DNA of 64,000 nucleotides from Brachionus manjavacas (Eukaryota; Rotifera; Eurotatoria; Ploima; Brachionidae): assembly GCA_019054805.1 (NCBI GenBank), contig JAHQIY010000022.1, positions 248,001-312,000 of the forward strand, read 5' to 3'. Each line of letters opens with the position of its first letter. Position 1 is the stretch's first letter. A model generated the notes under the pieces. The model ran no database searches. It was given only the letters and a program-made list of their open reading frames with translations, and was not told where the DNA came from. The translations under genes were made by a program, and so were the position numbers. Of this stretch, positions 24,700 through 56,080 are shown one piece after another.

Positions 24700-25126
24700 G
24701 TTTTAAATTTTGCCAGTTAATTTGAAAAGACTTTAAAATTTAATAATTCTTTATTGGATTTCCTTGATATGTTAAAAACATGTTTTGCCAAAATTTAAAA
24801 TTTAAAATTTTAAAATTAACTTTTGGTTAAAAAAAAAAAAAAAATTATCAGTAGATTTTTTGTTGGCTGTTTATCTAGGTTTATAACAATTCCTTAAGAA
24901 GAAACAAAAATCTAAATCTTTTTGCTTTAAAAAAGTAATGAAAAAAATAAATAGAATAAATTTGTTTCAAAACGATTAGTAATTTAATACAGAATAAAAC
25001 AATTAAAACCCATTTAGTTAATTACTGATATACTGAGCTCTTTGGTGAATTTCATTCGAACAAATTCTATTTGCTGCTATCTAAATTCATATCTTAACAC
25101 TAATATTTCTTTTCGTGGCTCCAAGG

Positions 25127-25134
25127 TATAAATA
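25127..25134 (+). promoter_or_regulatory. TATA box, myosin copy A
   Basis: TATAAATA, 70 bases before the start codon, in GGTATAAATAGTTGCGC. It is preserved in all three copies. Confidence 0.7.
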
Positions 25135-25203
25135 GTTGCGCAGAAATAAATAGAATCGAACATCTTTTTGTGGTTAAACAAAAAAAAGGAAAAAAGTCTA
25201 ATT

Positions 25204-28200
25204 ATGCTTGGTAATTTGAATGATCCAGAGATTGTCGAATCTCTCAAATATCTACTTGTGCCACAAGCGGAAAAAATCAAGGCCCAGTCTCAGCCATTTG
25301 ATGGAAAAAAACTTTTGGATTGCTGACAAAAAAGAAGGATTTTTGGCATGTGAGGTTCAGAGCGAAAAAGGAGATCAAGTCAGTGTAAAGACTTCGAAAG
25401 GAGAAACAATTACAGTAAAAAAGATGACCTGCAGCAGATGAACCCGCCGAAGTTCGAAAAATGCGAAGATATGGCCGACTTGACTTATTTGAATGACGCT
25501 TCAATTTTACACAATTTAAGAACTCGTTACATGAGCTGGTTGATTTACACCTATTCTGGTCTATTTTGTGTGGTCATTAATCCATACAAGCGTTTGCCTG
25601 TGTACACCATGAAAATGGTTGATTTGTATCGTGGCAAGAAAAAGAACGAGGTTCCGCCACATTTGTATTCGATTGCTGACAATGCCTATGCTAGTATGTT
25701 AGTAGACAGAGAAAATCAATCTATGCTCATTACGTAAGTTAATTTTTAATAAAATCAATTTTTTGATAAATTATTTTGAAAAAATTTTTTGATAAATTTT
25801 TTTGATAAATTCTATTTCTTTGATCTACTTGGTTTAATTGTTTTTGTGACTAAACAAATAGAGGTGAATCCGGAGCTGGTAAAACTGAAAACACAAAAAA
25901 AGTCATTCAATACTTTGCTTTTGTTGCTTGCACTGGCTCAGCTGCTGCCAAAAAAGATGATGGCGTAAATTAGAAAAAAAAAATTTAAAAATCAAGATAA
26001 TTAATTTATTTATTTTCAAACAATTGAAGAAAAAAGAAGCCAATTTAGAAGATCAAATTGTGTCAGCAAATCCGGTATTAGAGGCTTATGGTAATGCCAA
26101 GACAACTCGTAACAACAATTCTTCGCGTTTCGTAAGTTTACAATTTTTCTTTTTTTTATTGTCTTTTGTAATTTAATTGATTTAAAAAAAAGGGTAAATT
26201 TATTCGTATTCATTTTGGTCCAACTGGCAAAATTGCTGGTGCTGATATTGAATCATATTTGCTTGAAAAGTCTAGAGTTACATTTCAACAACCTGCTGAA
26301 AGAAATTATCATATCTTCTATCAATTACTAGCCAAGGAGTATCCGAAGTATCATAGTAATAGAATTTATTTAAATCTAACAAAAAAAATCCAACAAATTT
26401 TTATACTAATTTAAAAAGGTGATTTATTGGTCGAGGCCGATCCATCAAAATACTTCTTTGTTGCTCAAGGTATGTTGACTATTGACAATGTGGATGATGC
26501 AGAAGAAATGAAAGCTACTGATGAGGCTTTCGATGTGTTGAACTTTAGTGCTCAAGAGAAACTAGACTTGTTCAAGGCCACTGGTGCTATAATGCATTGG
26601 GGTAATTCAAAATGGAAGCAAAGACCAAGAGAGGAACAAGCTGAAACTGACGGAACTGAAGAGTGTGAAAAAGTGGCCCATCTATTGGGCGTCGAATGCG
26701 CTGATTTGATCAAAGGCTTGTTAAAGCCGAGAATTAAGGTTGGTAATGAGTACGTGAACAAAGGTCAGAACAAAGATCAAGTAATCAACTCAATTGGTGC
26801 TTTGTCCAAATCTATCTACTCGCGTCTCTTTCAATGGCTAGTAGATAGAGTCAATGAAACTTTAGACGTAAAAACAAAGAGACAGTTTTTCATCGGTGTC
26901 CTAGATATTGCTGGCTTTGAGATTTTCGATTACAATGGCTTTGAACAATTGTGCATCAATTATACCAATGAAAGATTGCAGCAGTTTTTCAATCATCACA
27001 TGTTTGTTTTGGAACAGGAAGAGTACAAAAAAGAAGGCATTCAATGGGAAATGATCAACTTTGGAATGGACTTGCAAGCTTGTATTGATTTGATTGAAAA
27101 GCCTATGGGCTTATTGTCAATTCTTGAAGAGGAATGTATTGTGCCAAAGGCTACAGACAAGACCTTTCAGGAGAAATTGTATGCTCAACATTTGGGCAAG
27201 CACCCAAATTTCGGTAAACCAAAACCATCCAAAGGCAAAGCCGAAGCTCATTTTGATTTGCACCATTATGCCGGCACAGTATCCTATAGTGTTACTGGAT
27301 GGCTAGAAAAGAACAAAGATCCCATCAATGCTACTGTAGCCACATTGTTCAAGACAAGTAAGACTAATGCTGTTTTGGCTAAATTGTATAAAGAAATGGG
27401 ACAAGAGGAAGAAAAAGGAAAAGCCAAAAAAGGTGGCAGTATGCAATCGATCTCAGCAAGTCATAGAGAACAATTGAACAAGCTGATGAACACTTTGAAG
27501 CAAACTCATCCTCACTTTGTTCGTTGTATTATTCCAAATGAAGTTAAAACTGGTGGAATTTTGGACCCTCATTTAGTTATGCATCAATTGAAGTGTAATG
27601 GTGTGTTGGAAGGCATTCGTATTTGCCGAAAAGGCTTTCCAAACAGAATGATGTTTGCCGAGTTCAAGCAACGATATAGCATTTTGGCTCCAAATGCCGT
27701 TCCAAAAGGTTTCATTGATGCCATTAAGGCAACCGGTTTAATTTTAAAAGACATTGCACTCGGTGAAGACTTGTATCGACTTGGTAACACCAAAGTTTTC
27801 TTTAGAGCCGGTGTATTGGGTCACTTGGAAGAGCTTAGGGATGCGGCTATTTCTAAGATCATCTGTATGTTGCAAAATCATATCAGAATGTATAGCATGA
27901 AAAAGCAATATAAAGTAATGCTCGACCAACGATTAGCTCTCTCTGTTTTGCAACGAAATATAAAGGCTTATCTTTCATTGAGAAATTGGTCGTGGTGGAA
28001 ATTGTACACTAAAGTAAAGCCATTATTGTCTGTGGCGAGACAGGAGGATGAAATGAAAGCCAAAGAAGAAGAAATGATTCAACTTAAAGAAAATTTCGAA
28101 AAGAGGAAAAACTGAGAAAAGAATTAGAAGAAACAAATTTAAAGCTATTAAAAGAGAAAAACGAATTGTATACCCAATTGCAAGCAGAAAGAGACAATAA

Positions 28201-31200
28201 TGGAAATTCAGAAGAAAGGATTCAGAAATTGGTCTTGCAAAAATCCGACTTGGAAACTCAAATCAAGGAAATTGAAGAGAAATTATCACAACAAGAATCT
28301 AGTTCGAGTGATTTAAGTTCTAAAAAGAAAAAATTGGAACAAGAAATCAGTGATTTGAAGCGAGACGTTGATGAATTCAAGACCAAATTGAGTAAATCGG
28401 ATTCAGAAAATAAGTCAAAAGATAATCAAATACACAAATTGCAGGATGAAATGGCTCGTCAAGACGAAACTATTGCTAAATTGGGTCGCGAAAAAAAACG
28501 CCTAGAAGAGGCAAATGCCAAAACAGTTGAACAAGTGCAACAAGAAGAAGACAAAGTAAATCACTTGAATAAAGTAAAGAGCAAATTAGAGCAGACACTG
28601 GATGAAACTGAGGACAATTTAGAAAGAGAGAAAAAGGCTAGAGCCGACCTTGATAAAGCGAAAAGGAAATTAGAATCAGACTTGAAGAATGCTCAATCTC
28701 AAATTGAAGAAATCGACAGACTCAAAAAAGATTTAGAGGACAACTTAAGAAGAAAAGACACTGAAATTAATCAATTGAATTCGAAAGTAGAAGAAGAACA
28801 TGGCCACTCAACAAGTATGCAAAAGAAAATAAAAGAATTACAAAAACGTTTGGAAGAAGCTGAAGAAGAAATTGAAACCGAACGTCAGTCAAAAGCAAAA
28901 ACGGAAAAGCAAAGAGCCGACTTGTCAAGAGAACTGGAAGAGTTAAATGAACGCCTAGAAGAAGCTGGTGGTGCTAGAACTGCTCAAATAGATTTGAACA
29001 AAAAACGAGAAGCAGAGCTATTAAAGTTGAGACGTGATCTTGAGGAAGCTAATTTGCAGCATGAAGCAACTGCAGCTCAGTTGAGAAAGAAACATCAAGA
29101 TGCAGTCAATGAAATGGGTGAGCAAATCGATCAGTTACAAAAGGCTAAAAATAAGTAAACATTTGTATTCTAATATAAAAAATCTAAAGAGTCTACAAAC
29201 TCATTTCTTAAGATTGGAAAAAGACAAGCAACTTATTAAAACCGAAGTAGATGATGCAAAAGTTCAAACTGAACAAGCGAACAAGTCAAAAGTAAAAAAA
29301 TAAATTAAACTTATTTGGCATAATCCCCAATTAAATATCCATATTCTAGGCTAATGTTGAGAAATTAGTCAAACAACTCGAATTACAATTGCAAGAGCTT
29401 TCCTCCAAGTTAGATGAATCATCGCGTGCAAACAATGAATTAAACTCTCAAAAAGGACGTCTTCAGTCTGAAAATTCCAATTTGATTCAACAAATAGAAG
29501 ACTTAGAAAGTCAAATAAGTAGCTTTGGTAAAACTAAACAGCAACTTCAGTCTCAAATCGAAGAAGCAAAACGAAATGCAGAAGAAGAGTCACGCGCTAA
29601 GTCATCACTCACTCAGCAATTGCGAAATTTAAACACCGATTTGGATCAAGCTAAAGAACAATGCGAAGAAGAACGTGAGGCTAAAGCTGACCTACAAAAG
29701 CAATTATCTAATTTGAATGGTGATTTACAACAGTGGAGATCAAAATATGAAACTGAAGGTCTAGCTCGAGCTGAAGAACTCGAAGAAGCAAAGAGAAAGC
29801 TAGCTGCAAAATTAAATGAGGCTGAAGAACAAGTTGAACAGGCACTAGCAAAATGTAGTAGTCTAGAAAAGACAAAGCAAAAACTTCAATGCGAAGTTGA
29901 GGATTTAATGGTTGATGTTGAGCGTGCAAATTCAAACTCTTCTGCTATGGAAAAGAAACAAAAGCAATTTGACAAATTAATTGGTGAATGGAAACAGAAA
30001 TGCGAAGATATAACACAAGAACTTGATAGTTCACAAAAAGAGGCACGTCAATATTCGACTGAATTGTTCAAATTAAAGACACATTTTGATCAAAGCAGTG
30101 AAACGATTGAATCGTTAAAGCGTGAGAACAAAAATTTAGCTGATGAACTCAAAGACCTGATGTCTCAATTATCTGATGGTGGAAAATCAGTTCATGAATT
30201 AGAAAAGTCACGATAAAGAATTGAAGCTGAGAAAGATGAATTGCAAGCAGCTTTAGAAGAGCTTGAATCTTGTCTCGAGCAAGAAGAGGCTAAAGTATTA
30301 AGAGCTCAGTTAGAGTTGAGTCAAGTCAGACAAGAAATCGACCGTCGTTTACATGAAAAAGAGGAAGAGTTTGAAAATACAAGACGCAATCACCAGAGAG
30401 CATTGGAATCTATGCAGGCAAGTCTAGAGGCTGAAACCAAGGGAAAAGTTGAAGCTATAAGACAAAAAAAGAAATTAGAAACAGATATTAATGAATTGGA
30501 AATTTCATTAGATCATTCAAATAGAGCAAATGCGGACTTACAAAAAACAAATAAGAAATTGCAACAATCGATCACCGAAATGCAATCTCAAATTGATGAC
30601 GAAGTAAGAAAGCGTGAAGAAGCAAGGGAATGTGTTGCCCATGCCGAAAGACGGGTAATTCTCTTAGAAAGCGAACTTGAAGAAGTACGAAGCGCTTTAG
30701 ATCAAGCCGAAAAGGCCAGAAAAGCTGCCGAAAATGATTTACACGATGCTGCTGATAGAATCAGCGAATTAGATGCTTCAAAATCAAGCTTGGGAGCTTT
30801 AAAAGAAAATTGGAGAGCGATTTATCGTCTTTACAATCAGATCTAGATGAAGCTATAATTGAGCTGAAAAATTCAGAAGATAGAGTAAAAACAGCGACTT
30901 TAGACGCTTCTCGATTGGCTGAAGAATTGAGAGTAGAACAGGAACATGTTTCGAATGTAGAAAAATTGAGGAAGGCGTTAGAATTGCAAACAAGGGATTT
31001 GCAAATCAGACTTGATCAAGCTGAATCAAATGCTCTTAAAGGTGGAAAGCGAATAATCCAAAAATTGGAACAACGAGTAAAATTTGTCATTCTTCTTATT
31101 TTTTCGTTTTCAAGTTTTATTTAACTAAAAGATTCACGAATTGGAAGAGGAAATAGAAAATGAACAGCGTCGCCATCAAGAGACCTTGAAAGAAGTCAAA

Positions 31201-31599
31201 GAAGAATGACAGAAGATTGAAAGAGTTGGCTAATCAGTCAGAGGAAGATAGAAAAAATCAAGCTAGATTACAAGATCTAATTGATAAGTTGCAAAATAAA
31301 CTAAAAGTTTATAAGCGACAAATAGAGGAAGCGGAAGAATTAGCAGCAATTAATTTAGCTAAATTCAGAAAAGCTCAGCATGATTTGGAGGATGCAGAAG
31401 AAAGAGCCGGACAAGCTGAGAATATGTTGAATAAGCAGAGAGCTAAGAATCGCAACTCTGTTTCGCAAGCCAGAACAAACTCTCCACAAGTATGATAACA
31501 TTAAAGAAGAAAGATTGTGTAATTTTATTATTTTTTTAGAGAGAACAAACGAGAGCAGGAAGTTCCGCTCCTCAAAGAGCCCAATCTGTTAGAAAATAA
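25204..31599 (+). pseudogene. Muscle myosin heavy chain, copy A (frame broken as written)
   Basis: Nine exons: 25,204-25,733, 25,862-25,964, 26,030-26,131, 26,193-26,355, 26,419-29,154, 29,213-29,291, 29,350-31,076, 31,132-31,489, 31,540-31,599. Landmarks in intact numbering: SH3-like fold about 33-80; P-loop GESGAGKT at 179-186; switch I NNNSSRF at 240-246; switch [10 protein letters not shown] from 463; lysine-rich actin loop (GKAKKGG); reactive-thiol helices [15 protein letters not shown] from 693; IQ/lever about 780-845; then a heptad rod of about 1,100 residues. It is a class II filament-forming motor; no alternative exon clusters of the insect type are seen. Breaks relative to the other copies: short A-runs at 25,305, 25,417, 28,099 and 30,801; one extra base near 31,200; and TAA at 30,214 where B and C have AAA. 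In contrast to B and C, it keeps the correct frame at [11 protein letters not shown] (27,025). Confidence 0.9.
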
Positions 31600-31618
31600 G
31601 CAAACAAATTATTTTACC

Positions 31619-31624
31619 AATAAA
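31619..31624 (+). terminator. Poly(A) signal, myosin copy A
   Basis: AATAAA 20 bases after the stop codon; conserved at 43,463 and, inverted, at 48,008. Confidence 0.6.
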
Positions 31625-32334
31625 GCAGAGCCATCATATTTCTTTTATTAACCATTTTCTTTTCCTTAGAAATTAAATAAATTATTTGAAAACTTCATTT
31701 TATTTTTTTTATCAATGACCCATTTTAGAAGTAAAACATTACAAAATCAACTCATTAAATTAATAATTTTAATTTATAATTCAACATTTATTCAAAGATT
31801 AAATAACTCACCTCAAAAAGGAAAGAAAAAAAATTCAAATAATAATTAAATATATCTCTTTTTACTCTTATTTTTAAGTAAACATGTTTATTAGTTAATA
31901 ACAAATATCCCTAAAAATCCCTAAATATTCAATTAAAAAAAGTAAATTTTTAGAAAGTCTTTTGATACCCAAACAGAAGTCTCTGATTAAAACCATAATG
32001 ATAATAAGGATACTAAAAACTTTGAAAATGATCTTGAAGAAGAAAAGGAAACACAAAATTCACCTTAATAACAAATATGAATCATATGAATACTCAGGTT
32101 ACGATTTACCCTAAGAAAAAATAATCAACTTACATTGAAAAAAATTTAAAAAAAAAAAAAAACAATCAGATTTTTTTAAATCGATTAGATTTTTAAAATT
32201 TTTAAGAACAATTAATAACAATTTAAAACTTGTATTCCTATTTTATTAATTATATTATTTGATGGATAATTTTGAATTGAAATTTTTAAATTTTTTATTA
32301 AATCAAATTAAAATTAATAAAACGGTATCAGTAA

Positions 32335-32870
32335 AATTCGAGGTGTATAGTCTCAACGTCAAAAAACTTGACGTCATTTTTTTGACGTGAAATAAACTCG
32401 ACGTGTAAAATAAACTCGACATTTTTTCGTAAATAATCTTTTACAACTTCTCTAATTCTTTTATCAATCTTAACATAAACCGGTTAATGCTTGGGCACTC
32501 ATCCAGTAACTAATTGTAAATGATTGTATTAGATTGTATTAGTATTAGATTGTTCTAATTTAATATTATAAACTAACAATTCTATTCCTCGTTGAGAAAG
32601 ACAAATATTTAATTTTTCTAATGCGTTAGTAATTTCGTTTATCTAGAAAGAAAAATGAAAAAATTTTTTTCCAATTATTTTAGTCGAGTCTCGTCAAGTC
32701 AAGTCAAAATTGAAGTCAAGTTTTTTTAGTCAAATTTTTCCTCGTTAAGTAAATATGACGTCAAAATTTTATTGACCTAAAAAAATTTACTAGTCAAAAA
32801 TATGACGACAAATTTCTTGAGGTCAAAAATTCTCAAGTCGAAATAACACACATCCAAAGAAATCATTTAT
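32335..32870. mobile_element. Non-coding element dense in GACGTC/CAAGTC words
   Basis: About 535 bp with clusters near both edges of TTGACGTCA, AACGTCAA, CGTCAAGTCAAGTC, TATGACGTCA, TATGACGAC and TTGAGGTCAA. The left edge (GAGGTGTATAGTCTCAACG) and the complement of the right edge (GGATGTGTGTTATTTCGAC) resemble each other. Clustered direct and inverted subterminal motifs are typical of transposase-binding regions in some DNA transposons (hAT, MULE, CACTA). No ORF. Confidence 0.5.
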
Positions 32871-32920
32871 TTATATTTAAATTATTTTTTTAACATGTTT
32901 GAATAATTATTTAAACTTAT

Positions 32921-33925
32921 GGGTTCAAATGGAAGTCATTAGTCAACATAAAATCGTATATAATTCTCTCATCACATCGTTATTCGACAATTGCGTTGAC
33001 AAATACTCAATCGAACTAAAAATTGAAAACTAACTAATACCTCTCGAACCAAATGCAAATTTCCTCGGCATTAAACTCGACCCTTAACTAAAACATGCCG
33101 ATTATTTTCCTGACCCAGCCAAGAAAGCGACAGCCAAAAGCAACATTCTATGAAAAATTAAAGGGTTCAAATGGAAGTCATTAGTCAACATAAAATCGTA
33201 TATAATTCTCTCATCAGATCGTTATTCGACAATTGCTTTGTTATTCTTCAAACCGGGGCACAAAAAATCCTACAAGACCTTCATATTTTTCAAAACAAAA
33301 TTTTTCGAATCATCAAAATTTTCCCGATTAAAACAAGCATTGAAACTATACATAAGACTCTAGACATAGAAAAAATCGACGACAGAGCTAACGCACTATT
33401 TTTAAAATTTTTAAAATCGAAAAAAAACCTCGACTTAATTGTCAAAGAAATCTACGAATACTCGAACAAAACCACAAATCAAACAAAAAATAAGTTTCGC
33501 TTTAACATTAGACTCGCTTTAACATGTTCCTCAATTAAACTTTTTTGTTTCCTAAAAAGAGGGCTGAAAAGAGGGTCTACATCACTCGGAACCGTCCTGG
33601 AGTTAATCTCCAAAATTATTTTCTCAAAGAAAAGAAAAAAAAAACACGTGATTGTTCAGCTACGCATGTTGACAAAAATTTAAATAATTCATTTAATGAT
33701 TCAATCAATCAAGAAATCAATATATCCGAATAGATTAAAAACAACCATCTAAGTCATAGATTCATGTTTTCTTAAATTTCATTTTTTTTTTAACTTGTTT
33801 ATTTTATTTTGATTTTTTTTTATCTAATTTTATTTCCTTAAATTTTATTTTTTATTTTTATTTTGATTTTTTTAAAATTTATTCTGAAAGAGCCCTAGCT
33901 TGGTATAGAAAACAAATAAATAAAC
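32921..33925 (+). pseudogene. LINE ORF2 3' portion with tail, unit A
   Basis: Reads as the C-terminal part of a non-LTR retrotransposon ORF2: ANFLGIKLDP..LKHADYFPD, KKATAKSNIL, then KIVYNSLIRSLFDNCFVILQ, LQDLHIFQNKIFRIIKIFP and TIHKTLDIEKIDDRANALF. This is the FLGI...ATAKSNIL...YNSLIRS..DN...LQ.IQN..LRII pattern of Jockey/CR1-like elements. About 75 bp (GGGTTCAAATGGAAGTCATT onward) occurs at both 32,921 and 33,163, so the copy carries an internal duplication of about 240 bp. It ends CTGAAAGAGCCCTAGCTTGG then TATAGAAAACAAATAAATAAA. Stops and the missing 5' region make it dead. Confidence 0.75.
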
Positions 33926-34177
33926 GATTTAAGTAAGATGAGCGAAGAATTGCTTGGTGTTCTGATGAAAAAATTTACCAATGTGCTCAATATCTTAAAA
34001 TGGAAAATTAAATTTTCAAAAAATTGATAAATGATCAATCTATACTGAAAATTCATAATATTAATAGAGGGTTGGTTAATGTTCAAAAATATTGTCTTTT
34101 GTTGTCTTAGAATCTGATGGAACAACAAAAGCTATACAAATATTCCAGTTTTCAAGTGGATATGTCAAAAAAGCATA

Positions 34178-34464
34178 ATTGAATACAATATCTTTTTTTG
34201 AATTGAATACAATATCTTTTCATGTACCTTTTTGATCAACGGCTCCGATCTGACATCGATGCTACTGCATCGAGTTGATCATGTACGGCGCAATTATTAC
34301 CTAAATCCAGTAGAAACTAGTCTCCCTATTTTTAAGATGAAAGGGGTTTAAACATTCGCACCCTATTGCAAAGATATTTTGATGATTTTATCACCCTCAG
34401 CGGGTTTTTAACCCTCGATCCCTTGCTTGCATGACTAACACGCAAACCATTCGGCTATATGGGC
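34178..34464 (-). mobile_element. tRNA-derived SINE, unit A
   Basis: The head at 34,464-34,393 (minus) folds as a tRNA: acceptor GCCCATA against TGAGGGT, T-arm GAGGG-TTAAAAA-CCCGC and a seven-base anticodon loop GTCATGC (CAT anticodon), each with one mismatch or wobble. The body follows (GCGAATGTTTAAACCCC, TAGTTTCTACTGG, GATGATCAACTCGATG-type text), then a tail in which GATATTGTATTCAATT occurs twice. A shared but headless relative lies at 23.4 kb. Confidence 0.65.
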
Positions 34465-35199
34465 TTTCAAATGTATAAAAAAATCAGGAAATTCTCCTAA
34501 AAACTGAGAGGATTAAAAAAGTTAAGAATAATCTATATCTGTAAAAAATCTTAAACTAAAATAAGCCAAAACTCTTTGATAAATCCTGAAAATTTCTGAC
34601 AAAAAAAAAAAAACAAAAAATTATCCTATTAGTTTATTATCAAAGATCTGACAGGTTTTCAAAAATTTAATTTAAAAACCTAGAAAAAAATTTTATCTGC
34701 TTGAATTTTTTATTAATGCAGAATTTTTTTCTAAATATAAGGGCATGAAAAGCATCCTGTTTTTCATTAGAGAAGACGCATTATATTTGAAAAAAAATTT
34801 TAATAAGTTTGGAGGTCAAAGCGGCTATTCAAATATTGATCAGGAATATTAAAAATTTTTAATTTCTAAATTGGAAGCAATAAAATTCGTGAAAAATTTT
34901 AAAAAAGTGTTTTCAATTAAATATTATTTGTAATTTTTTTATTTTATTTTGACAATTTTTTTAAGAAAATTATATGAAAATCCAAAAAATAAAACAAAAA
35001 ATCTCAATAAATAAAGGCATGTAATAATAAATTATGCTATTAATATTAAAATAAAAAACAAAATTACTGAACTAAAGAACATATGTATTTTTTTATTTCT
35101 ATTACAATAAAAAAGTTATAAAATAAAAAAAGTATTACAATTTATATCAATTTAGAACAAAAATAATAAAACATAGACAAAAAATTCAATTCACTTAGT

Positions 35200-35345
35200 T
35201 TTTTGTTTGTTTGATCCAACTGGCCTACCGCGTTTTTTTTTAACTTGGGGCTGTGGAGTAACGATTAGGGTCTCTTCAAGACGAATTTTTTTTGATATTG
35301 GCTCTTGTCAATCGTTTTCGGCAAAAGTCATAGCTAGATGTCCTT
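35200..35345 (-). pseudogene. MULE transposase C-terminal fragment, unit A
   Basis: The minus strand encodes LESAQGHLAMTFAEND, a stop, QEPISKKIRLEETLIV, then TPQPQVKKKRGRPVGSNKQK and a stop. The KKRGRPVGSNK ending is an AT-hook-like tail common in MULE/SWIM-type transposase proteins. Only this tail is present. Confidence 0.5.
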
Positions 35346-35775
35346 GAGCTGATTCTAAGTTACGAAAACTACAGAAAGGAAGGTTTTTCTTTTCCTCTAG
35401 TTTTTTTCACTTGTTCAGGTTCAATGGACTCATCCTGGCTTAAGTTGTTTGAGATTTTTTCGATAAAAGAATTTTTTTCAATAGTGAATATTGTCTGGCT
35501 CAATAATTTCCTTTATGTATAACACCAATAAACTCATCTTGTCGGAATCAGCTTTAGAAGGTCTTAAATTAATATCAAAAATAATATTGAAATCAAAAGT
35601 CTTTTTAGATATATATTTGTTTCAATTAGATCAAATTAGCTATCAATTTAATTTAATTGTACTAACAAAAAAAAATTGACACTAACATCAGTATTTTTGT
35701 TATAGAAAATATTCTTTTTGTTTTTTTTTTAATTTTATACGCGATAAATAAATCATTTGAAAAAAAAAGAAAAAG

Positions 35776-36000
35776 ACCACAAGATTCAGTTTATCGGATT
35801 GTATTGAGATCGTCAATACAAAGATAAAAATTATAAATTCAAAGGTGAATATGAAATAAACATTGATACATTGAGCTGTAATTGTAAATTTTACATTAAA
35901 TGAGTGTTTAGTGCCCATTTTTTAGCATTGAAAGACCTTATAGGTGGTGATCATTTTCCAAACAAGCCGAACGGAGAACGTACTATTTTAGCTGACAGAT
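35776..36000 (+). pseudogene. MULE SWIM zinc-finger fragment upstream of myosin copy B
   Basis: The plus strand reads YKFKGEYEINIDTLSCNCKF, YIK, a stop, then VFSAHFLALKDLIGGDHFPN and GERTILADRWQD. This is a SWIM finger (C-x-C...C-x-H) with the third ligand changed to Ser (FSAH for FCAH). From YKFKG onward it matches the inverted copy at 55.74-55.90 kb; the left 60 bases differ. Not part of unit A. Confidence 0.6.
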
Positions 36001-36250
36001 GGCAAGATTTTTATTTCATGTACACATTTTTCTACCTTAACTTTCTTTGGTATTAATTTGAGTAAAAATTTTATTTTATTTTTTTTAATCATTATTCATT
36101 TATTGATAATCTTTAAATAAACAAAATAAAAAGTTATTAAAAATCAAAAATGTTTTTTTTCAAAAATTCAAAAAAATTTAAGTGATCGAAAAGATTAAAA
36201 TTCACTTTTCTTCATTTTCAAAATACATTTAAATACTATTTTATTCATAT
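36001..36250. mobile_element. Half of the 8.3-kb MITE family, upstream of copy B
   Basis: GGCAAGATTTTTATTTCATG then ACACATTTTTCTACC matches the left end of the element at 8,338; the mirrored half is absent. The inverted counterpart lies at 55,480-55,735. It directly abuts the SWIM fragment. Confidence 0.55.
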
Positions 36251-36968
36251 CATCTAATGGTCAAGCTCAAAACTTATCTAAAAAATTGACGATAAGTTAA
36301 GAACTTGATCATCAAAATTTGACAATAAACTTCAATTTATCCATTTAAAAAATGTTAAAAGTAATGAACGAAAGAAATTCTAATTATTCCATCAAGTAAG
36401 AAATTTGGTCAGCTAAAATCTATTTTGACAAAAAGACATAATTTAATAAATTTGATGCTAAAGTATATTTGGAATATGTGAACAAAATTTAATTTCCAAG
36501 TTTTGTATTTAAACTCTATTTAAAAAAAAAAAAAATTTGCGTTTTAATTTTTGCCAGTTAATTTGAAAAGACTTTAAAATTTAATAATTCTTTATTGGAT
36601 TTCCTTGATATGTTAAAAACATGTTTTGCCAAAATTTAAAATTTAAAATTTTAAAATTAACTTTTGGTTAAAAAAAAAAAAAAAAATTATCAGTAGATTT
36701 TTTGTTGGCTGTTTATCTAGGTTTATAACAATTCCTTAAGAAGAAACAAAAATCTAAATCTTTTTGCTTTAAAAAAGTAATGAAAAAAATAAATAGAATA
36801 AATTTGTTTCAAAACGATTAGTAATTTAATACAGAATAAAACAATTAAAACCCATTTAGTTAATTACTGATATACTGAGCTCTTTGGTGAATTTCATTCG
36901 AACAAATTCTATTTGCTGCTATCTAAATTCATATCTTAACACTAATATTTCTTTTCGTGGCTCCAAGG

Positions 36969-43443: not shown

Positions 43444-43462
43444 GCAAACAAATTATTTTACC

Positions 43463-44173: not shown

Positions 44174-44709
44174 AATTCGAGGTGTATAGTCTCAACGTCA
44201 AAAAACTTGACGTCATTTTTTTGACGTGAAATAAACTCGACGTGTAAAATAAACTCGACATTTTTTCGTAAATAATCTTTTACAACTTCTCTAATTCTTT
44301 TATCAATCTTAACATAAACCGGTTAATGCTTGGGCACTCATCCAGTAACTAATTGTAAATGATTGTATTAGATTGTATTAGTATTAGATTGTTCTAATTT
44401 AATATTATAAACTAACAATTCTATTCCTCGTTGAGAAAGACAAATATTTAATTTTTCTAATGCGTTAGTAATTTCGTTTATCTAGAAAGAAAAATGAAAA
44501 AATTTTTTTCCAATTATTTTAGTCGAGTCTCGTCAAGTCAAGTCAAAATTGAAGTCAAGTTTTTTTTAGTCAAATTTTTCCTCGTTAAGTAAATATGACG
44601 TCAAAATTTTATTGACCTAAAAAAATTTACTAGTCAAAAATATGACGACAAATTTCTTGAGGTCAAAAATTCTCAAGTCGAAATAACACACATCCAAAGA
44701 AATCATTTA
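44174..44709. mobile_element. GACGTC/CAAGTC-rich element, unit B
   Basis: Counterpart of the element at 32.3-32.9 kb; the only difference I noticed is one T-run length. Located in the loop of the B/C palindrome. Confidence 0.5.
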
Positions 44710-44760
44710 TTTATATTTAAATTATTTTTTTAACATGTTTGAATAATTATTTAAACTTAT

Positions 44761-45762
44761 GGGTTCAAATGGAAGTCATTAGTCAACATAAAATCGTATA
44801 TAATTCTCTCATCACATCGTTATTCGACAATTGCGTTGACAAATACTCAATCGAACTAAAAATTGAAAACTAACTAATACCTCTCGAACCAAATGCAAAT
44901 TTCCTCGGCATTAAACTCGACCCTTAACTAAAACATGCCGATTATTTTCCTGACCCAGCCAAGAAAGCGACAGCCAAAAGCAACATTCTATGAAAAATTA
45001 AAGGGTTCAAATGGAAGTCATTAGTCAACATAAAATCGTATATAATTCTCTCATCAGATCGTTATTCGACAATTGCTTTGTTATTCTTCAAACCGGGGCA
45101 CAAAAAATCCTACAAGACCTTCATATTTTTCAAAACAAAATTTTTCGAATCATCAAAATTTTCCCGATTAAAACAAGCATTGAAACTATACATAAGACTC
45201 TAGACATAGAAAAAATCGACGACAGAGCTAACGCACTATTTTTAAAATTTTTAAAATCGAAAAAAAACCTCGACTTAATTGTCAAAGAAATCTACGAATA
45301 CTCGAACAAAACCACAAATCAAACAAAAAATAAGTTTCGCTTTAACATTAGACTCGCTTTAACATGTTCCTCAATTAAACTTTTTTGTTTCCTAAAAAGA
45401 GGGCTGAAAAGAGGGTCTACATCACTCGGAACCGTCCTGGAGTTAATCTCCAAAATTATTTTCTCAAAGAAAAGAAAAAAAAAACACGTGATTGTTCAGC
45501 TACGCATGTTGACAAAAATTTAAATAATTCATTTAATGATTCAATCAATCAAGAAATCAATATATCCGAATAGATTAAAAACAACCATCTAAGTCATAGA
45601 TTCATGTTTTCTTAAATTTCATTTTTTTTTTAACTTGTTTATTTTATTTTGATTTTTTTATCTAATTTTATTTCCTTAAATTTTATTTTTTATTTTTATT
45701 TTGATTTTTTAAAATTTATTCTGAAAGAGCCCTAGCTTGGTATAGAAAACAAATAAATAAAC
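44761..45762 (+). pseudogene. LINE ORF2 3' portion with tail, unit B
   Basis: Same copy as in unit A, including the internal duplication (44,761 and 45,003) and the open 170-codon C-terminal frame. It was therefore present before the unit was duplicated. Confidence 0.75.
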
Positions 45763-46015
45763 GATTTAAGTAAGATGAGCGAAGAATTGCTTGGTGTTCT
45801 GATGAAAAAATTTACCAATGTGCTCAATATCTTAAAATGGAAAATTAAATTTTCAAAAAATTGATAAATGATCAATCTATACTGAAAATTCATAATATTA
45901 ATAGAGGGTTGGTTAATGTTCAAAAATATTGTCTTTTGTTGTCTTAGAATCTGATGGAACAACAAAAGCTATACAAATATTCCAGTTTTCAAGTGGATAT
46001 GTCAAAAAAGCATAA

Positions 46016-46300
46016 TTGAATACAATATCTTTTTTGAATTGAATACAATATCTTTTCATGTACCTTTTTGATCAACGGCTCCGATCTGACATCGATGCTA
46101 CTGCATCGAGTTGATCATGTACGGCGCAATTATTACCTAAATCCAGTAGAAACTAGTCTCCCTATTTTTAAGATGAAAGGGGTTTAAACATTCGCACCCT
46201 ATTGCAAAGATATTTTGATGATTTTATCACCCTCAGCGGGTTTTTAACCCTCGATCCCTTGCTTGCATGACTAACACGCAAACCATTCGGCTATATGGGC
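46016..46300 (-). mobile_element. tRNA-derived SINE, unit B
   Basis: Counterpart of the SINE in unit A; tRNA-like head at 46,300-46,229. It differs by small T-run changes in the tail. Confidence 0.65.
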
Positions 46301-47034
46301 TTTCAAATGTATAAAAAAATCAGGAAATTCTCCTAAAAACTGAGAGGATTAAAAAAGTTAAGAATAATCTATATCTGTAAAAAATCTTAAACTAAAATAA
46401 GCCAAAACTCTTTGATAAATCCTGAAAATTTCTGACAAAAAAAAAAAAACAAAAAATTATCCTATTAGTTTATTATCAAAGATCTGACAGGTTTTCAAAA
46501 ATTTAATTTAAAAACCTAGAAAAAAATTTTATCTGCTTGAATTTTTTATTAATGCAGAATTTTTCTAAATATAAGGGCATGAAAAGCATCCTGTTTTTCA
46601 TTAGAGAAGACGCATTATATTTGAAAAAAAATTTTAATAAGTTTGGAGGTCAAAGCGGCTATTCAAATATTGATCAGGAATATTAAAAATTTTTAATTTC
46701 TAAATTGGAAGCAATAAAATTCGTGAAAAATTTTAAAAAAGTGTTTTCAATTAAATATTATTTGTAATTTTTTTATTTTATTTTGACAATTTTTTTAAGA
46801 AAATTATATGAAAATCCAAAAAATAAAACAAAAAATCTCAATAAATAAAGGCATGTAATAATAAATTATGCTATTAATATTAAAATAAAAAACAAAATTA
46901 CTGAACTAAAGAACATATGTATTTTTTTATTTCTATTACAATAAAAAAGTTATAAAATAAAAAAAGTATTACAATTTATATCAATTTAGAACAAAAATAA
47001 TAAAACATAGACAAAAAATTCAATTCACTTAGTT

Positions 47035-47180
47035 TTTTGTTTGTTTGATCCAACTGGCCTACCGCGTTTTTTTAACTTGGGGCTGTGGAGTAACGATTAG
47101 GGTCTCTTCAAGACGAATTTTTTTTGATATTGGCTCTTGTCAATCGTTTTCGGCAAAAGTCATAGCTAGATGTCCTTGAG
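47035..47180 (-). pseudogene. MULE transposase C-terminal fragment, unit B
   Basis: Counterpart of the fragment at 35.2 kb, with a shorter T-run inside the KKKRGRP coding stretch. Confidence 0.5.
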
Positions 47181-48007
47181 CTGATTCTAAGTTACGAAAA
47201 CTACAGAAAGGAAGGTTTTTCTTTTCCTCTAGTTTTTTTCACTTGTTCAGGTTCAATGGACTCATCCTGGCTTAAGTTGTTTGAGATTTTTTCGATAAAA
47301 GAATTTTTTTCAATAGTGAATATTGTCTGGCTCAATAATTTCCTTTATGTATAACACCAATAAACTCATCTTGTCGGAATCAGCTTTAGAAGGTCTTAAA
47401 TTAATATCAAAAATAATATTGAAATCAATTTAAAAATTTCAATTTTGAACATAAAATTATCCATTTTAAAAATCTTTTTTTTTTAAATTTTTTTCAATGT
47501 AAGTTGATTATTTTTTCTTAGGGTAAATCGTAACCTGAGTATTCATATGATTCATATTTGTTATTAAGGTGAATTTTGTGTTTCCTTTTCTTCTTCAAGA
47601 TCATTTTCAAAGTTTTTAGTATCCTTATTATCATTATGGTTTTAATCAGAGACTTCTGTTTGGGTATCAAAAGACTTTCTAAAAATTTACTTTTTTTAAT
47701 TGAATATTTAGGGATTTTTAGGGATATTTGTTATTAACTAATAAACATGTTTACTTAAAAATAAGAGTAAAAAGAGATATATTTAATTATTATTTGAATT
47801 TTTTTTCTTTCCTTTTTGAGGTGAGTTATTTAATCTTTGAATAAATGTTGAATTATAAATTAAAATTATTAATTTAATGAGTTGATTTTGTAATGTTTTA
47901 CTTCTAAAATGGGTCATTGATAAAAAAAATAAAATGAAGTTTTCAAATAATTTATTTAATTTCTAAGGAAAAGAAAATGGTTAATAAAAGAAATATGATG
48001 GCTCTGC

Positions 48008-48013
48008 TTTATT
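48008..48013 (-). terminator. Poly(A) signal, myosin copy C
   Basis: AATAAA on the minus strand, 20 bases after the stop codon. Confidence 0.6.
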
Positions 48014-48032
48014 GGTAAAATAATTTGTTTGC

Positions 48033-51000
48033 TTATTTTCTAACAGATTGGGCTCTTTGAGGAGCGGAACTTCCTGCTCTCGTTTGTTCTCTCTAAAAAA
48101 ATAATAAAATTACACAATCTTTCTTCTTTAATGTTATCATACTTGTGGAGAGTTTGTTCTGGCTTGCGAAACAGAGTTGCGATTCTTAGCTCTCTGCTTA
48201 TTCAACATATTCTCAGCTTGTCCGGCTCTTTCTTCTGCATCCTCCAAATCATGCTGAGCTTTTCTGAATTTAGCTAAATTAATTGCTGCTAATTCTTCCG
48301 CTTCCTCTATTTGTCGCTTATAAACTTTTAGTTTATTTTGCAACTTATCAATTAGATCTTGTAATCTAGCTTGATTTTTTCTATCTTCCTCTGACTGATT
48401 AGCCAACTCTTTCAATCTTCTGTCATTCTTTTTGACTTCTTTCAAGGTCTCTTGATGGCGACGCTGTTCATTTTCTATTTCCTCTTCCAATTCGTGAATC
48501 TTTTAGTTAAATAAAACTTGAAAACGAAAAAATAAGAAGAATGACAAATTTTACTCGTTGTTCCAATTTTTGGATTATTCGCTTTCCACCTTTAAGAGCA
48601 TTTGATTCAGCTTGATCAAGTCTGATTTGCAAATCCCTTGTTTGCAATTCTAACGCCTTCCTCAATTTTTCTACATTCGAAACATGTTCCTGTTCTACTC
48701 TCAATTCTTCAGCCAATCGAGAAGCGTCTAAAGTCGCTGTTTTTACTCTATCTTCTGAATTTTTCAGCTCAATTATAGCTTCATCTAGATCTGATTGTAA
48801 AGACGATAAATCGCTCTCCAATTTTCTTTTTAAAGCTCCCAAGCTTGATTTTGAAGCATCTAATTCGCTGATTCTATCAGCAGCATCGTGTAAATCATTT
48901 TCGGCAGCTTTTCTGGCCTTTTCGGCTTGATCTAAAGCGCTTCGTACTTCTTCAAGTTCGCTTTCTAAGAGAATTACCCGTCTTTCGGCATGGGCAACAC
49001 ATTCCCTTGCTTCTTCACGCTTTCTTACTTCGTCATCAATTTGAGATTGCATTTCGGTGATCGATTGTTGCAATTTCTTATTTGTTTTTTGTAAGTCCGC
49101 ATTTGCTCTATTTGAATGATCTAATGAAATTTCCAATTCATTAATATCTGTTTCTAATTTCTTTTTTTGTCTTATAGCTTCAACTTTTCCCTTGGTTTCA
49201 GCCTCTAGACTTGCCTGCATAGATTCCAATGCTCTCTGGTGATTGCGTCTTGTATTTTCAAACTCTTCCTCTTTTTCATGTAAACGACGGTCGATTTCTT
49301 GTCTGACTTGACTCAACTCTAACTGAGCTCTTAATACTTTAGCCTCTTCTTGCTCGAGACAAGATTCAAGCTCTTCTAAAGCTGCTTGCAATTCATCTTT
49401 CTCAGCTTCAATTCTTTTTCGTGACTTTTCTAATTCATGAACTGATTTTCCACCATCAGATAATTGAGACATCAGGTCTTTGAGTTCATCAGCTAAATTT
49501 TTGTTCTCACGCTTTAACGATTCAATCGTTTCACTGCTTTGATCAAAATGTGTCTTTAATTTGAACAATTCAGTCGAATATTGACGTGCCTCTTTTTGTG
49601 AACTATCAAGTTCTTGTGTTATATCTTCGCATTTCTGTTTCCATTCACCAATTAATTTGTCAAATTGCTTTTGTTTCTTTTCCATAGCAGAAGAGTTTGA
49701 ATTTGCACGCTCAACATCAACCATTAAATCCTCAACTTCGCATTGAAGTTTTTGCTTTGTCTTTTCTAGACTACTACATTTTGCTAGTGCCTGTTCAACT
49801 TGTTCTTCAGCCTCATTTAATTTTGCAGCTAGCTTTCTCTTTGCTTCTTCGAGTTCTTCAGCTCGAGCTAGACCTTCAGTTTCATATTTTGATCTCCACT
49901 GTTGTAAATCACCATTCAAATTAGATAATTGCTTTTGTAGGTCAGCTTTAGCCTCACGTTCTTCTTCGCATTGTTCTTTAGCTTGATCCAAATCGGTGTT
50001 TAAATTTCGCAATTGCTGAGTGAGTGATGACTTAGCGCGTGACTCTTCTTCTGCATTTCGTTTTGCTTCTTCGATTTGAGACTGAAGTTGCTGTTTAGTT
50101 TTACCAAAGCTACTTATTTGACTTTCTAAGTCTTCTATTTGTTGAATCAAATTGGAATTTTCAGACTGAAGACGTCCTTTTTGAGAGTTTAATTCATTGT
50201 TTGCACGCGATGATTCATCTAACTTGGAGGAAAGCTCTTGCAATTGTAATTCGAGTTGTTTGACTAATTTCTCAACATTAGCCTAGAATATGGATATTTA
50301 ATTGGGGATTATGCCAAATAAGTTTAATTTATTTTTTTACTTTTGACTTGTTCGCTTGTTCAGTTTGAACTTTTGCATCATCTACTTCGGTTTTAATAAG
50401 TTGCTTGTCTTTTTCCAATCTTAAGAAATGAGTTTGTAGACTCTTTAGATTTTTTTATTAGAATACAAATGTTTACTTATTTTTAGCCTTTTGTAACTGA
50501 TCGATTTGCTCACCCATTTCATTGACTGCATCTTGATGTTTCTTTCTCAACTGAGCTGCAGTTGCTTCATGCTGCAAATTAGCTTCCTCAAGATCACGTC
50601 TCAACTTTAATAGCTCTGCTTCTCGTTTTTTGTTCAAATCTATTTGAGCAGTTCTAGCACCACCAGCTTCTTCTAGGCGTTCATTTAACTCTTCCAGTTC
50701 TCTTGACAAGTCGGCTCTTTGCTTTTCCGTTTTTGCTTTTGACTGACGTTCGGTTTCAATTTCTTCTTCAGCTTCTTCCAAACGTTTTTGTAATTCTTTT
50801 ATTTTCTTTTGCATACTTGTTGAGTGGCCATGTTCTTCTTCTACTTTCGAATTCAATTGATTAATTTCAGTGTCTTTTCTTCTTAAGTTGTCCTCTAAAT
50901 CTTTTTTGAGTCTGTCGATTTCTTCAATTTGAGATTGAGCATTCTTCAAGTCTGATTCTAATTTCCTTTTCGCTTTATCAAGGTCGGCTCTAGCCTTTTT

Positions 51001-54000
51001 CTCTCTTTCTAAATTGTCCTCAGTTTCATCCAGTGTCTGCTCTAATTTGCTCTTTACTTTATTCAAGTGATTTACTTTGTCTTCTTCTTGTTGCACTTGT
51101 TCAACTGTTTTGGCATTTGCCTCTTCTAGGCGTTTTTTTCGCGACCCAATTTAGCAATAGTTTCGTCTTGACGAGCCATTTCATCCTGCAATTTGTGTAT
51201 TTGATTATCTTTTGACTTATTTTCTGAATCCGATTTACTCAATTTGGTCTTGAATTCATCAACGTCTCGCTTCAAATCACTGATTTCTTGTTCCAATTTT
51301 TTCTTTTTAGAACTTAAATCACTCGAACTAGATTCTTGTTGTGATAATTTCTCTTCAATTTCCTTGATTTGAGTTTCCAAGTCGGATTTTTGCAAGACCA
51401 ATTTCTGAATCCTTTCTTCTGAATTTCCATTATTGTCTCTTTCTGCTTGCAATTGGGTATACAATTCGTTTTTCTCTTTTAATAGCTTTAAATTTGTTTC
51501 TTCTAATTCTTTTCTCAGTTTTTCCTCTTTTTCGAAATTTTCTTTAAGTTGAATCATTTCTTCTTCTTTGGCTTTCATTTCATCCTCCTGTCTCGCCACA
51601 GACAATAATGGCTTTACTTTAGTGTACAATTTCCACCACGACCAATTTCTCAATGAAAGATAAGCCTTTATATTTCGTTGCAAAACAGAGAGAGCTAATC
51701 GTTGGTCGAGCATTACTTTATATTGCTTTTTCATGCTATACATTCTGATATGATTTTGCAACATACAGATGATCTTAGAAATAGCCGCATCCCTAAGCTC
51801 TTCCAAGTGACCCAATACACCGGCTCTAAAGAAAACTTTGGTGTTACCAAGTCGATACAAGTCTTCACCGAGTGCAATGTCTTTTAAAATTAAACCGGTT
51901 GCCTTAATGGCATCAATGAAACCTTTTGGAACGGCATTTGGAGCCAAAATGCTATATCGTTGCTTGAACTCGGCAAACATCATTCTGTTTGGAAAGCCTT
52001 TTCGGCAAATACGAATGCCTTCCAACACACCATTACACTTCAATTGATGCATAACTAAATGAGGGTCCAAAATTCCACCAGTTTTAACTTCATTTGGAAT
52101 AATACAACGAACAAAGTGAGGATGAGTTTGCTTCAAAGTGTTCATCAGCTTGTTCAATTGTTCTCTATGACTTGCTGAGATCGATTGCATACTGCCACCT
52201 TTTTTGGCTTTTCCTTTTTCTTCCTCTTGTCCCATTTCTTTATACAATTTAGCCAAAACAGCATTAGTCTTACTTGTCTTGAACAATGTGGCTACAGTAG
52301 CATTGATGGGATCTTTGTTCTTTTCTAGCCATCCAGTAACACTATAGGATACTGTGCCGGCATAATGGTGCAAATCAAAATGAGCTTCGGCTTTGCCTTT
52401 GGATGGTTTTGGTTTACCGAAATTTGGGTGCTTGCCCAAATGTTGAGCATACAATTTCTCCTGAAAGGTCTTGTCTGTAGCCTTTGGCACAATACATTCC
52501 TCTTCAAGAATTGACAATAAGCCCATAGGCTTTTCAATCAAATCAATACAAGCTTGCAAGTCCATTCCAAAGTTGATCATTTCCCATTGAATGCCTTCTT
52601 TTTGTACTCTTCCTGTTCCAAAACAAACATGTGATGATTGAAAAACTGCTGCAATCTTTCATTGGTATAATTGATGCACAATTGTTCAAAGCCATTGTAA
52701 TCGAAAATCTCAAAGCCAGCAATATCTAGGACACCGATGAAAAACTGTCTCTTTGTTTTTACGTCTAAAGTTTCATTGACTCTATCTACTAGCCATTGAA
52801 AGAGACGCGAGTAGATAGATTTGGACAAAGCACCAATTGAGTTGATTACTTGATCTTTGTTCTGACCTTTGTTCACGTACTCATTACCAACCTTAATTCT
52901 CGGCTTTAACAAGCCTTTGATCAAATCAGCGCATTCGACGCCCAATAGATGGGCCACTTTTTCACACTCTTCAGTTCCGTCAGTTTCAGCTTGTTCCTCT
53001 CTTGGTCTTTGCTTCCATTTTGAATTACCCCAATGCATTATAGCACCAGTGGCCTTGAACAAGTCTAGTTTCTCTTGAGCACTAAAGTTCAACACATCGA
53101 AAGCCTCATCAGTAGCTTTCATTTCTTCTGCATCATCCACATTGTCAATAGTCAACATACCTTGAGCAACAAAGAAGTATTTTGATGGATCGGCCTCGAC
53201 CAATAAATCACCTTTTTAAATTAGTATAAAAATTTGTTGGATTTTTTTTGTTAGATTTAAATAAATTCTATTACTATGATACTTCGGATACTCCTTGGCT
53301 AGTAATTGATAGAAGATATGATAATTTCTTTCAGCAGGTTGTTGAAATGTAACTCTAGACTTTTCAAGCAAATATGATTCAATATCAGCACCAGCAATTT
53401 TGCCAGTTGGACCAAAATGAATACGAATAAATTTACCCTTTTTTTTAAATCAATTAAATTACAAAAGACAATAAAAAAAAGAAAAATTGTAAACTTACGA
53501 AACGCGAAGAATTGTTGTTACGAGTTGTCTTGGCATTACCATAAGCCTCTAATACCGGATTTGCTGACACAATTTGATCTTCTAAATTGGCTTCTTTTTT
53601 CTTCAATTGTTTGAAAATAAATAAATTAATTATCTTGATTTTTAAATTTTTTTTTCTAATTTACGCCATCATCTTTTTTGGCAGCAGCTGAGCCAGTGCA
53701 AGCAACAAAAGCAAAGTATTGAATGACTTTTTTTGTGTTTTCAGTTTTACCAGCTCCGGATTCACCTCTATTTGTTTAGTCACAAAAACAATTAAACCAA
53801 GTAGATCAAAGAAATAGAATTTATCAAAAAAATTTATCAAAAAATTTTTTCAAAATAATTTATCAAAAAAATTGATTTTATTAAAAATTAACTTACGTAA
53901 TGAGCATAGATTGATTTTCTCTGTCTACTAACATACTAGCATAGGCATTGTCAGCAATCGAATACAAATGTGGCGGAACCTCGTTCTTTTTCTTGCCACG

Positions 54001-54425
54001 ATACAAATCAACCATTTTCATGGTGTACACAGGCAAACGCTTGTATGGATTAATGACCACACAAAATAGACCAGAATAGGTGTAAATCAACCAGCTCATG
54101 TAACGAGTTCTTAAATTGTGTAAAATTGAAGCGTCATTCAAATAAGTCAAGTCGGCCATATCTTCGCATTTTTCGAACTTCGGCGGGTTCATCTGCTGCA
54201 GGTCATCTTTTTTTACTGTAATTGTTTCTCCTTTCGAAGTCTTTACACTGACTTGATCTCCTTTTTCGCTCTGAACCTCACATGCCAAAAATCCTTCTTT
54301 TTGTCAGCAATCCAAAAGTTTTTTCCATCAAATGGCTGAGACTGGGCCTTGATTTTTTCCGCTTGTGGCACAAGTAGATATTTGAGAGATTCGACAATCT
54401 CTGGATCATTCAAATTACCAAGCAT
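48033..54425 (-). pseudogene. Muscle myosin heavy chain, copy C (inverted, frame broken as written)
   Basis: The same nine-exon layout on the minus strand; exon 1 is 54,425-53,897 and the last exon ends in the TAA at 48,035-48,033. Three breaks are visible: the A-run in DKKEGF one short (54,298-54,302), the run in EYKKEG one short (52,599-52,603, the same state as copy B) and the run in REKKRLEE one short (51,131-51,137). In addition the FDGK run is one whole codon shorter than in B. Where B differs from A by substitution (Thr/Arg, Ala/Gly), C agrees with A; where A has its TAA, C agrees with B. Rod exons 6-9 are fully open. Transcription would run towards copy B, tail to tail. Confidence 0.9.
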
Positions 54426-54495
54426 AATTAGACTTTTTTTCCTTTTTTTTGTTTAACCACAAAAAGATGTTCGATTCTATTTATTTCTGCGCAAC

Positions 54496-54503
54496 TATTT
54501 ATA
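54496..54503 (-). promoter_or_regulatory. TATA box, myosin copy C
   Basis: TATAAATA on the minus strand in the same context as copies A and B. Confidence 0.7.
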
Positions 54504-55212
54504 CCTTGGAGCCACGAAAAGAAATATTAGTGTTAAGATATGAATTTAGATAGCAGCAAATAGAATTTGTTCGAATGAAATTCACCAAAGAGCTCAGTAT
54601 ATCAGTAATTAACTAAATGGGTTTTAATTGTTTTATTCTGTATTAAATTACTAATCGTTTTGAAACAAATTTATTCTATTTATTTTTTTCATTACTTTTT
54701 TAAAGCAAAAAGATTTAGATTTTTGTTTCTTCTTAAGGAATTGTTATAAACCTAGATAAACAGCCAACAAAAAATCTACTGATAATTTTTTTTTTTTAAC
54801 CAAAAGTTAATTTTAAAATTTTAAATTTTAAATTTTGGCAAAACATGTTTTTAACATATCAAGGAAATCCAATAAAGAATTATTAAATTTTAAAGTCTTT
54901 TCAAATTAACTGGCAAAAATTAAAACGCAAATTTTTTTTTTTAAATAGAGTTTAAATACAAAACTTGGAAATTAAATTTTGTTCACATATTCCAAATATA
55001 CTTTAGCATCAAATTTATTAAATTATGTCTTTTTGTCAAAATAGATTTTAGCTGACCAAATTTCTTTCTTGATAGTATAATTAGAATTTCTTTCGTTCAT
55101 TACTATTAACATTTTTTAAATGGATAAATTGAAGTTTATTGTCAAATTTTGATGATCAAGTTCTTAACTTATCGTCAATTTTTTAGATAAGTTTTGAGCT
55201 TGACCATTAGAT

Positions 55213-55480
55213 GTTTAAGCTTTTTAATTAAAAAAATTAAATGCAAAGTTTCATTTTCACCAGTAGCATTATTAAAATATATCAAAGTCTTGTGCACTTT
55301 TCTGCATGCATAAATTTTTGTGCATAGATTTGCAGAAAATAAAAAATTGGGAATATTATTTCCCCACAATCAAAAGCTTTTTTCCCACAAATCAAAGTCT
55401 TTTCAACAAAATTTTTTTTAAAAAATATTTCAGCAAAAAATAAAATTTAACAAAAATTTCTTTTATTTTGAATAAAATAT
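55213..55480. other. Extra block present only upstream of copy C
   Basis: About 265 bases (TTTAAGCTTTTTAATT ... TTTCTTTTATTTTGAATA) interrupt otherwise collinear homology with 36,236-36,250. No inverted ends or ORF recognised. Either an insertion in C or a deletion in B. Confidence 0.55.
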
Positions 55481-55734
55481 GAATAAAATAGTATTTAAAT
55501 GTATTTTGAAAATGAAGAAAAGTGAATTTTAATCTTTTCGATCACTAAAATTTTTTGGATTTTTGAAAAAAAACATTTTTGATTTTTAAAAACTTTTTAT
55601 TTTGTTTATTTAAAGATTATCAATAAATGAATAATGATTAAAAAAAATAAAATAAAATTTTTACTCAAATTAATACCAAAGAAAGTTAAGGTAGAAAAAT
55701 GTGTACATGAAATAAAAATCTTGCCATCTGTCAG

Positions 55735-56080
55735 CTAAAATAGTACGTTCTCCGTTCGGCTTGTTTGGAAAATGATCACCACCTATAAGGTCTTTCAATG
55801 CTAAAAAATGGGCACTAAACACTCATTTAATGTAAAATTTACAATTACAGCTCAATGTATCAATGTTTATTTCATATTCACCTTTGAATTTATAACTATT
55901 ATCTGGTAAACATCTTGTAATATTCCCATTTAGCCAAGGATTTTTGAAAATTTAATCACTCTTTTTGCAGACCAAGCGTCAACTTTAAAATTTTCAAAAA
56001 TTACTAATTTATTAGCTATCCACTTGACATTTTTAATTTTCAAAATACATTTAAATTGTGTTGATAAGTCTTTGAAGTGT
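55735..56080 (-). pseudogene. MULE transposase SWIM-region fragment upstream of copy C
   Basis: Minus strand: VDAWSAKRVIKFSKILG, a frame change, NGNITRCLPDNSYKFKGEYE, INIDTLSCNCKFYIK, a stop, then the SAHFLALKD half. It extends further 5' than the piece near copy B, showing that B's flank is the truncated version. The SWIM third ligand is Ser here as well. Confidence 0.6.

Follow-up and report, generated by a model that had tools for sequence, protein, structure and literature searches.

A probable recent local amplification of a muscle myosin heavy chain gene in the rotifer Brachionus manjavacas, with direct and inverted copies that may have been homogenised by exchange

Three near-identical copies of a muscle-type myosin heavy chain gene, hereafter A, B and C, lie side by side in the genome assembly of the rotifer Brachionus manjavacas, and the locus raises the question of how they came to be so alike. 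A sequence-only reading had left three answers open, namely a very recent event, maintenance by gene conversion, or an assembly artefact. The analysed window was a stretch of 64,000 nucleotides (C22:248,001-312,000, contig JAHQIY010000022.1) within a 61-contig assembly of 114.17 Mb, and positions given below are counted from its first letter. The evidence favoured a real, recent local amplification of the gene, probably homogenised by gene conversion or unequal exchange. This reading was carried by abrupt jumps in divergence at the edges of the copies, by conflicting patterns of flank sharing and by a triplet of another myosin gene elsewhere in the genome, while an artefact involving haplotypes retained a minor but appreciable share of the probability.

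The limits and identities of the repeats were obtained by self-BLAST of the window. Copy A (24,684-35,596, plus strand) and copy B (36,525-47,428, plus strand) formed direct repeats with 99.67% identity over 10,923 columns. Their common unit comprised the gene (25,204-31,599 in A) and 4.0 kb of 3' flank, in full agreement with the earlier description of direct repeats of about 10.9 kb including 4 kb of 3' flank. The 5' break of copy A was located at 24,684, 520 bp before the ATG. Copy B also provided the left arm and the loop of an inverted repeat, the other arm of which was copy C (47,475-55,213, minus strand): B 36,251-44,000 matched C 55,213-47,475 with 99.70% identity over 7,753 columns, and an outer piece at 35,822-36,250 matched 55,904-55,477 at 98.6%. 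C had been described as the reverse complement of B with arms of about 8 kb around a loop of 3.3 kb; the arms were confirmed (7.75 + 0.43 kb), but the loop (44,001-47,474, plus strand) measured 3,474 bp. This loop corresponded to the 3' flank of B and contained a truncated copy of a dispersed repeat, TE1, as well as another dispersed piece that gave no Pfam match and that we take to be a fragment of a long interspersed nuclear element (LINE). Copies A and C were likewise inverted relative to each other across A 24,682-32,157 (99.72%). Repeats of 7.5-10.9 kb at more than 99.6% identity are far outside chance, and adjacent near-identical copies that include non-coding flank are the expected trace of recent local gene amplification.

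The three genes began with an ATG at 25,204 (A), 37,048 (B) and 54,425 (C, minus strand) and ended at a stop 6.4 kb downstream, thus covering 25,204-31,599, 37,048-43,443 and 48,033-54,425, respectively. The last exon ended at 31,596, 43,440 and 48,036, and the stop codon came next in all three. A myosin motor domain (PF00063, 4e-75) and a long coiled-coil tail (PF01576, 9e-29) were each detected on one exon of B, and the P-loop GESGAGKT was present. A composite of A and B could be read through 1,954 residues, 98-100% of its length aligning to full-length rotifer myosin heavy chains. Among the 120 matches listed, those bearing a name were myosin heavy chains termed muscle, striated muscle or skeletal, the remainder being unnamed rotifer products. 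The predicted product is a sarcomeric-type (class II muscle) myosin heavy chain.

The closest named relative among the listed matches was a partial myosin from Brachionus plicatilis (647 of 658 aligned residues identical), followed at greater distance by a partial myosin from Brachionus calyciflorus (85% over 72% of the query) and by bdelloid rotifer proteins (66-71%). In a 21-row tree, which included no non-muscle myosin, the six rows from the present genome fell within one Brachionus clade (support 100/100). Since the window gene paired there with the B. plicatilis fragment (100/99), the gene lineage predates the split from this species. A, B and C were far closer to one another than to that single fragment. 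The near-identity of the three copies is younger than the gene lineage itself, whether it arose by duplication or by conversion.

The copies were aligned base by base, and indels and substitutions were counted. A and B differed by 22 gaps and three substitutions in 10,858 bp, A and C by 14 gaps and one substitution in 7,427 bp, and B and the inner arm of C by nine gaps and two substitutions in 7,465 bp. The differences were thus mainly indels of short length, the majority located at A/T runs. Between ATG and stop only three substitutions separated the copies (A positions 28,977, 29,720 and 30,214), the same number that had been noticed in the coding stretches compared before.

A different level of divergence was found at the edges. 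The 5' flank common to B and C only (35,822-36,524, plus strand) contained five substitutions in 428 bp and four in a further 270 bp, in total nine in 698 aligned bp, against two in 7,465 bp of the inner arm (Fisher test, P 1e-8). The first 429 bp of this flank in B include pieces of a second dispersed repeat, TE2; outside this transposon part the contrast persisted (four in 270 bp against two in 7,465 bp, P 2e-5). In addition, the 5' flank of C carried a stretch of 263 bp (55,214-55,476), missing from that of B, between its inner arm and its outer inverted arm (55,477-55,904, minus strand; partner 35,822-36,250), and compared with B, copy C had lost about 26 bp and about 64 bp at its 3' edge. 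A homogenised body thus met diverged edges at a sharp boundary, the pattern that characterises concerted evolution by gene conversion. The independent insertion of the same transposon beside B and C was considered as a source of this flank and disfavoured, its other genomic pieces above 100 bp being about 78-89% alike to that of B, against 99% between B and C, and four of the nine edge substitutions falling in the 270 bp outside the element.

The flanks and the bodies also grouped the copies differently. According to self-BLAST, the 5' flank was shared by B and C only and the 3' flank by A and B only, whereas at body positions 28,977 and 29,720 A and C agreed against B; at 28,977 the base of B was that of all seven other aligned paralogues. 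Such conflicting pairings are a mark of exchange between copies, although two haplotypes mixed in the assembly could imitate part of them.

Genome searches with two exons extended the comparison to at least ten muscle-type myosin genes, three in the window, one on contig C7 and at least six on contig C8, the latter within about 86 kb (C8:3,789,855-3,878,715). Three direct units of 8.93 kb on C8 bore another muscle-type myosin. The second and third of these copies differed by one mismatch in 7.4 kb, while the first was free of substitutions against the other two across 5,869 bp, beyond which about 1,550 bp contained 30 (P 5e-21). The count of 30 was taken from a ten-sequence MAFFT alignment, and pairwise BLAST gave 27-28 mismatches. 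The recurrence of a uniform body with a diverged edge at an independent locus favours a biological cause over a one-off misassembly. The C7 gene (C7:3,994,148-4,001,936) paired in the tree with another, unnamed record (95/94); in this gene the codons for TSWLIY are followed by an intron, and the window copies were without that intron.

The description of the three genes as near-identical stood, but it had overlooked that every copy is frameshifted in the assembly and that none has an open frame in its assembled form. The frame was broken by eleven coding indels, five in A (25,304, 25,416, 28,098, 30,800 and 31,201), three in B (38,874, 40,175 and 40,337) and three in C (54,303, 52,604 and 51,140), and C also had an in-frame loss of three bases at 54,325. 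Ten of the eleven were losses of one or two bases in short A runs, the remaining one being an extra G in A. The premature stop at 30,214 in A arose by substitution. Every site broken in A, B or C was kept in frame by at least one copy. Inside the same exons searched, all six near-identical muscle myosin copies of the genome were frameshifted, as opposed to none of four diverged myosin paralogues, whose largest open exons had 916, 921, 925 and 945 codons (P 0.005, for a test picked after the data had been seen and for copies that are not independent). Because of this partition, the frameshifts are most likely residual homopolymer consensus errors and not pseudogene decay; polishing would have failed in repeats of this length and similarity.

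Errors of this kind also belong to the first alternative to be weighed, an assembly artefact in which the assembly would contain one gene, or two haplotypes of it, twice or three times over; a haplotype or chimeric misjoin would have given the inverted copy, and homopolymer noise would mimic distinct copies. The prevalence of indels over substitutions in the bodies, most of them at A/T runs, is in line with it, and a difference between haplotypes would account for the edge divergence and the 263-bp indel between B and C. Its simpler forms fared less well: the edge substitutions and edge deletions between B and C, together with their indel of 263 bp, disfavour both a plain fold-back (missing-adapter or amplification chimera) and a single locus assembled twice from one haplotype. 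Moreover, separate misjoins would be needed for the direct and the inverted copies, with different flank partners, the C8 triplet has the same edge pattern, and the site is interior to a contig of 1.17 Mb, away from its end.

Control loci of the same assembly bore on this alternative in both directions. Proteasome-family genes, of which 16 loci were counted from 27 search rows, without exception lacked a twin next to them; false doubling was thus not seen everywhere in the assembly. Zero-substitution neighbours were present among tubulin and actin genes. In a tubulin cluster (C4:7,058,500-7,104,500), presumably of the alpha type judging from the first residues, direct copies matched for 4.0 kb without a substitution, and those in inverted orientation were 95-98% alike; one diverged copy had a shorter frame of 380 codons. 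An actin pair on C48, 7.4 kb apart, had no substitution over 1.48 kb. The alike stretches at these loci were mostly 1.5-2.1 kb long, one tubulin pair being alike across the whole 4.0 kb compared, and the near-identical copies, of genes of about 380-460 codons, kept open frames.

Several of these observations weigh against a homogenised amplification. Tubulin and actin neighbours without substitutions, differing by indels only, fit an amplification-prone genome but equally fit local assembly duplication, and the proteasome control is uninformative about repeats of 10 kb. The open frames of the near-identical tubulin and actin copies weaken the idea that such repeats always stay unpolished. Within the window, the 3' flank of A and B showed no substitution in 3,428 bp, the edge differences between B and C could represent two haplotypes, and the positions 28,977 and 29,720 at which A and C agree could be consensus errors. 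On balance, we consider an artefact unlikely, though not negligible, and from the assembled sequence we infer that the arrangement is probably physically real.

A second alternative accepts the copies as real and explains them by recent stepwise duplication alone, the edge differences coming from separate events with different break points. The break points do differ between copies, and any two bodies differ by only one to three substitutions. However, a single duplication would give a single level of divergence, and by substitutions the B/C 5' flank was about 98.7% identical, the adjoining body about 99.97%; nor does it agree with the pairing of A with C at two body sites while the flanks pair B with C and A with B. 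Stepwise duplication without conversion is therefore doubtful, and conversion would be the better explanation of the uniform bodies. That the copies are pseudogenes decaying after duplication, as the three broken frames and the five breaks plus the substitution-made stop of A might suggest, is very improbable and was rejected as the main reading in view of the A-run origin of ten of the eleven breaks, the lack of any site broken in all three copies, the open long exons of all four diverged paralogues and the mere three substitutions from ATG to stop.

If the amplification is real, its course may be outlined as follows. A recent segmental duplication would have made three local copies, with one direct and one inverted addition. 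Dispersed repeats were located at or close to the break points: copy A continues at its 3' end through TE1 (34,996-35,768, plus strand, limits approximate), an element that breaks off in B at 47,428; upstream of B, the TE2 piece is truncated at 35,822 in comparison with that of C. Sites of this kind, rich in A/T and in repeats, could have been where duplication took place, through microhomology or through unequal exchange, and conversion would have followed. Since B has both flanks, A being without the 5' flank and C without most of the 3' flank, B is most simply regarded as the parent copy. Conversion or unequal exchange would then keep the gene bodies nearly uniform and leave the array edges diverged. 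The likely effect would be more myosin transcript encoding the same protein, that is, a change of dosage.

Other features of the window were also noted. Pieces of the dispersed repeat TE2 at 55,336-56,147 matched on both strands, which suggests a palindromic or fold-back element. Upstream of A, another dispersed repeat (22,238-23,181) had many listed genomic copies that were 92-97% alike, and it looks young. An open frame of 417 residues adjoining the myosin array (20,601-21,851) gave five Pfam matches to the chitin-binding Peritrophin-A domain. A direct repeat of 202 bp (56,938-57,139 and 58,096-58,297, 99%) was located inside two adjacent open frames without Pfam match. No RNA family reached its gathering score in the window.

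Clusters of sarcomeric myosin heavy chain genes are familiar from vertebrates, where the genes lie side by side and exchange sequence. The rotifer resembles these clusters in carrying the C8 group, but its genes are of independent origin, as indicated by the six rows inside one Brachionus clade. The sex-chromosome palindromes, held uniform by arm-to-arm gene conversion, offer another parallel, with inverted arms that are near-identical and flanks that are less so; the rotifer arms differ in holding a muscle gene and in being only about 8 kb long. The nearest counterpart is the threespine stickleback, for which excerpts of a preprint describe a copy-number expansion of MYH3C: the direct tandems of about 17.6 kb are backed by read depth as well as by long reads, and 4-8 bp of microhomology mark the break points, which fall within neighbouring genes (PMC12776057). 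According to the same excerpts, the C3A and C3B proteins of freshwater fish are identical, later exchange gave mosaic copies, the suggested mechanisms are microhomology-mediated break-induced replication and non-allelic recombination, and expansions and gene conversions are mentioned for the vertebrate sarcomeric family (PMC12776057). As far as these excerpts go, both systems involve a sarcomeric myosin heavy chain gene amplified locally along with flanking regulatory DNA, but the rotifer has one inverted copy and break points in repeat-rich flanks, and its copies are known from assembled sequence, those of the stickleback from reads (PMC12776057). Among the titles and abstract openings listed for rotifer myosin heavy chain, for rotifer myosin with gene family expansion and muscle, for Brachionus gene conversion and for myosin heavy chain with gene conversion, clusters and tandems, none described the present locus. 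Local myosin amplification was already known from the stickleback, and the rotifer case would add another example.

A practical consequence would be that near-identical repeat copies of 7-11 kb can resemble pseudogenes in an assembly through retained consensus errors. With regard to rotifer biology, it is tempting, but at present speculative and rather unlikely, to suppose that genes for contraction and for the cytoskeleton (tubulin, actin, and muscle myosin at two loci) have repeatedly undergone local amplification, with copies in both direct and inverted orientation that exchange keeps identical, as a dosage solution for an animal of fixed cell number whose few cells must provide strong muscles and cilia. 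If the myosin copies are real, they would represent an invertebrate counterpart of the stickleback myosin copy-number expansion, and dosage amplification of a muscle gene would become testable in an easily cultured animal.

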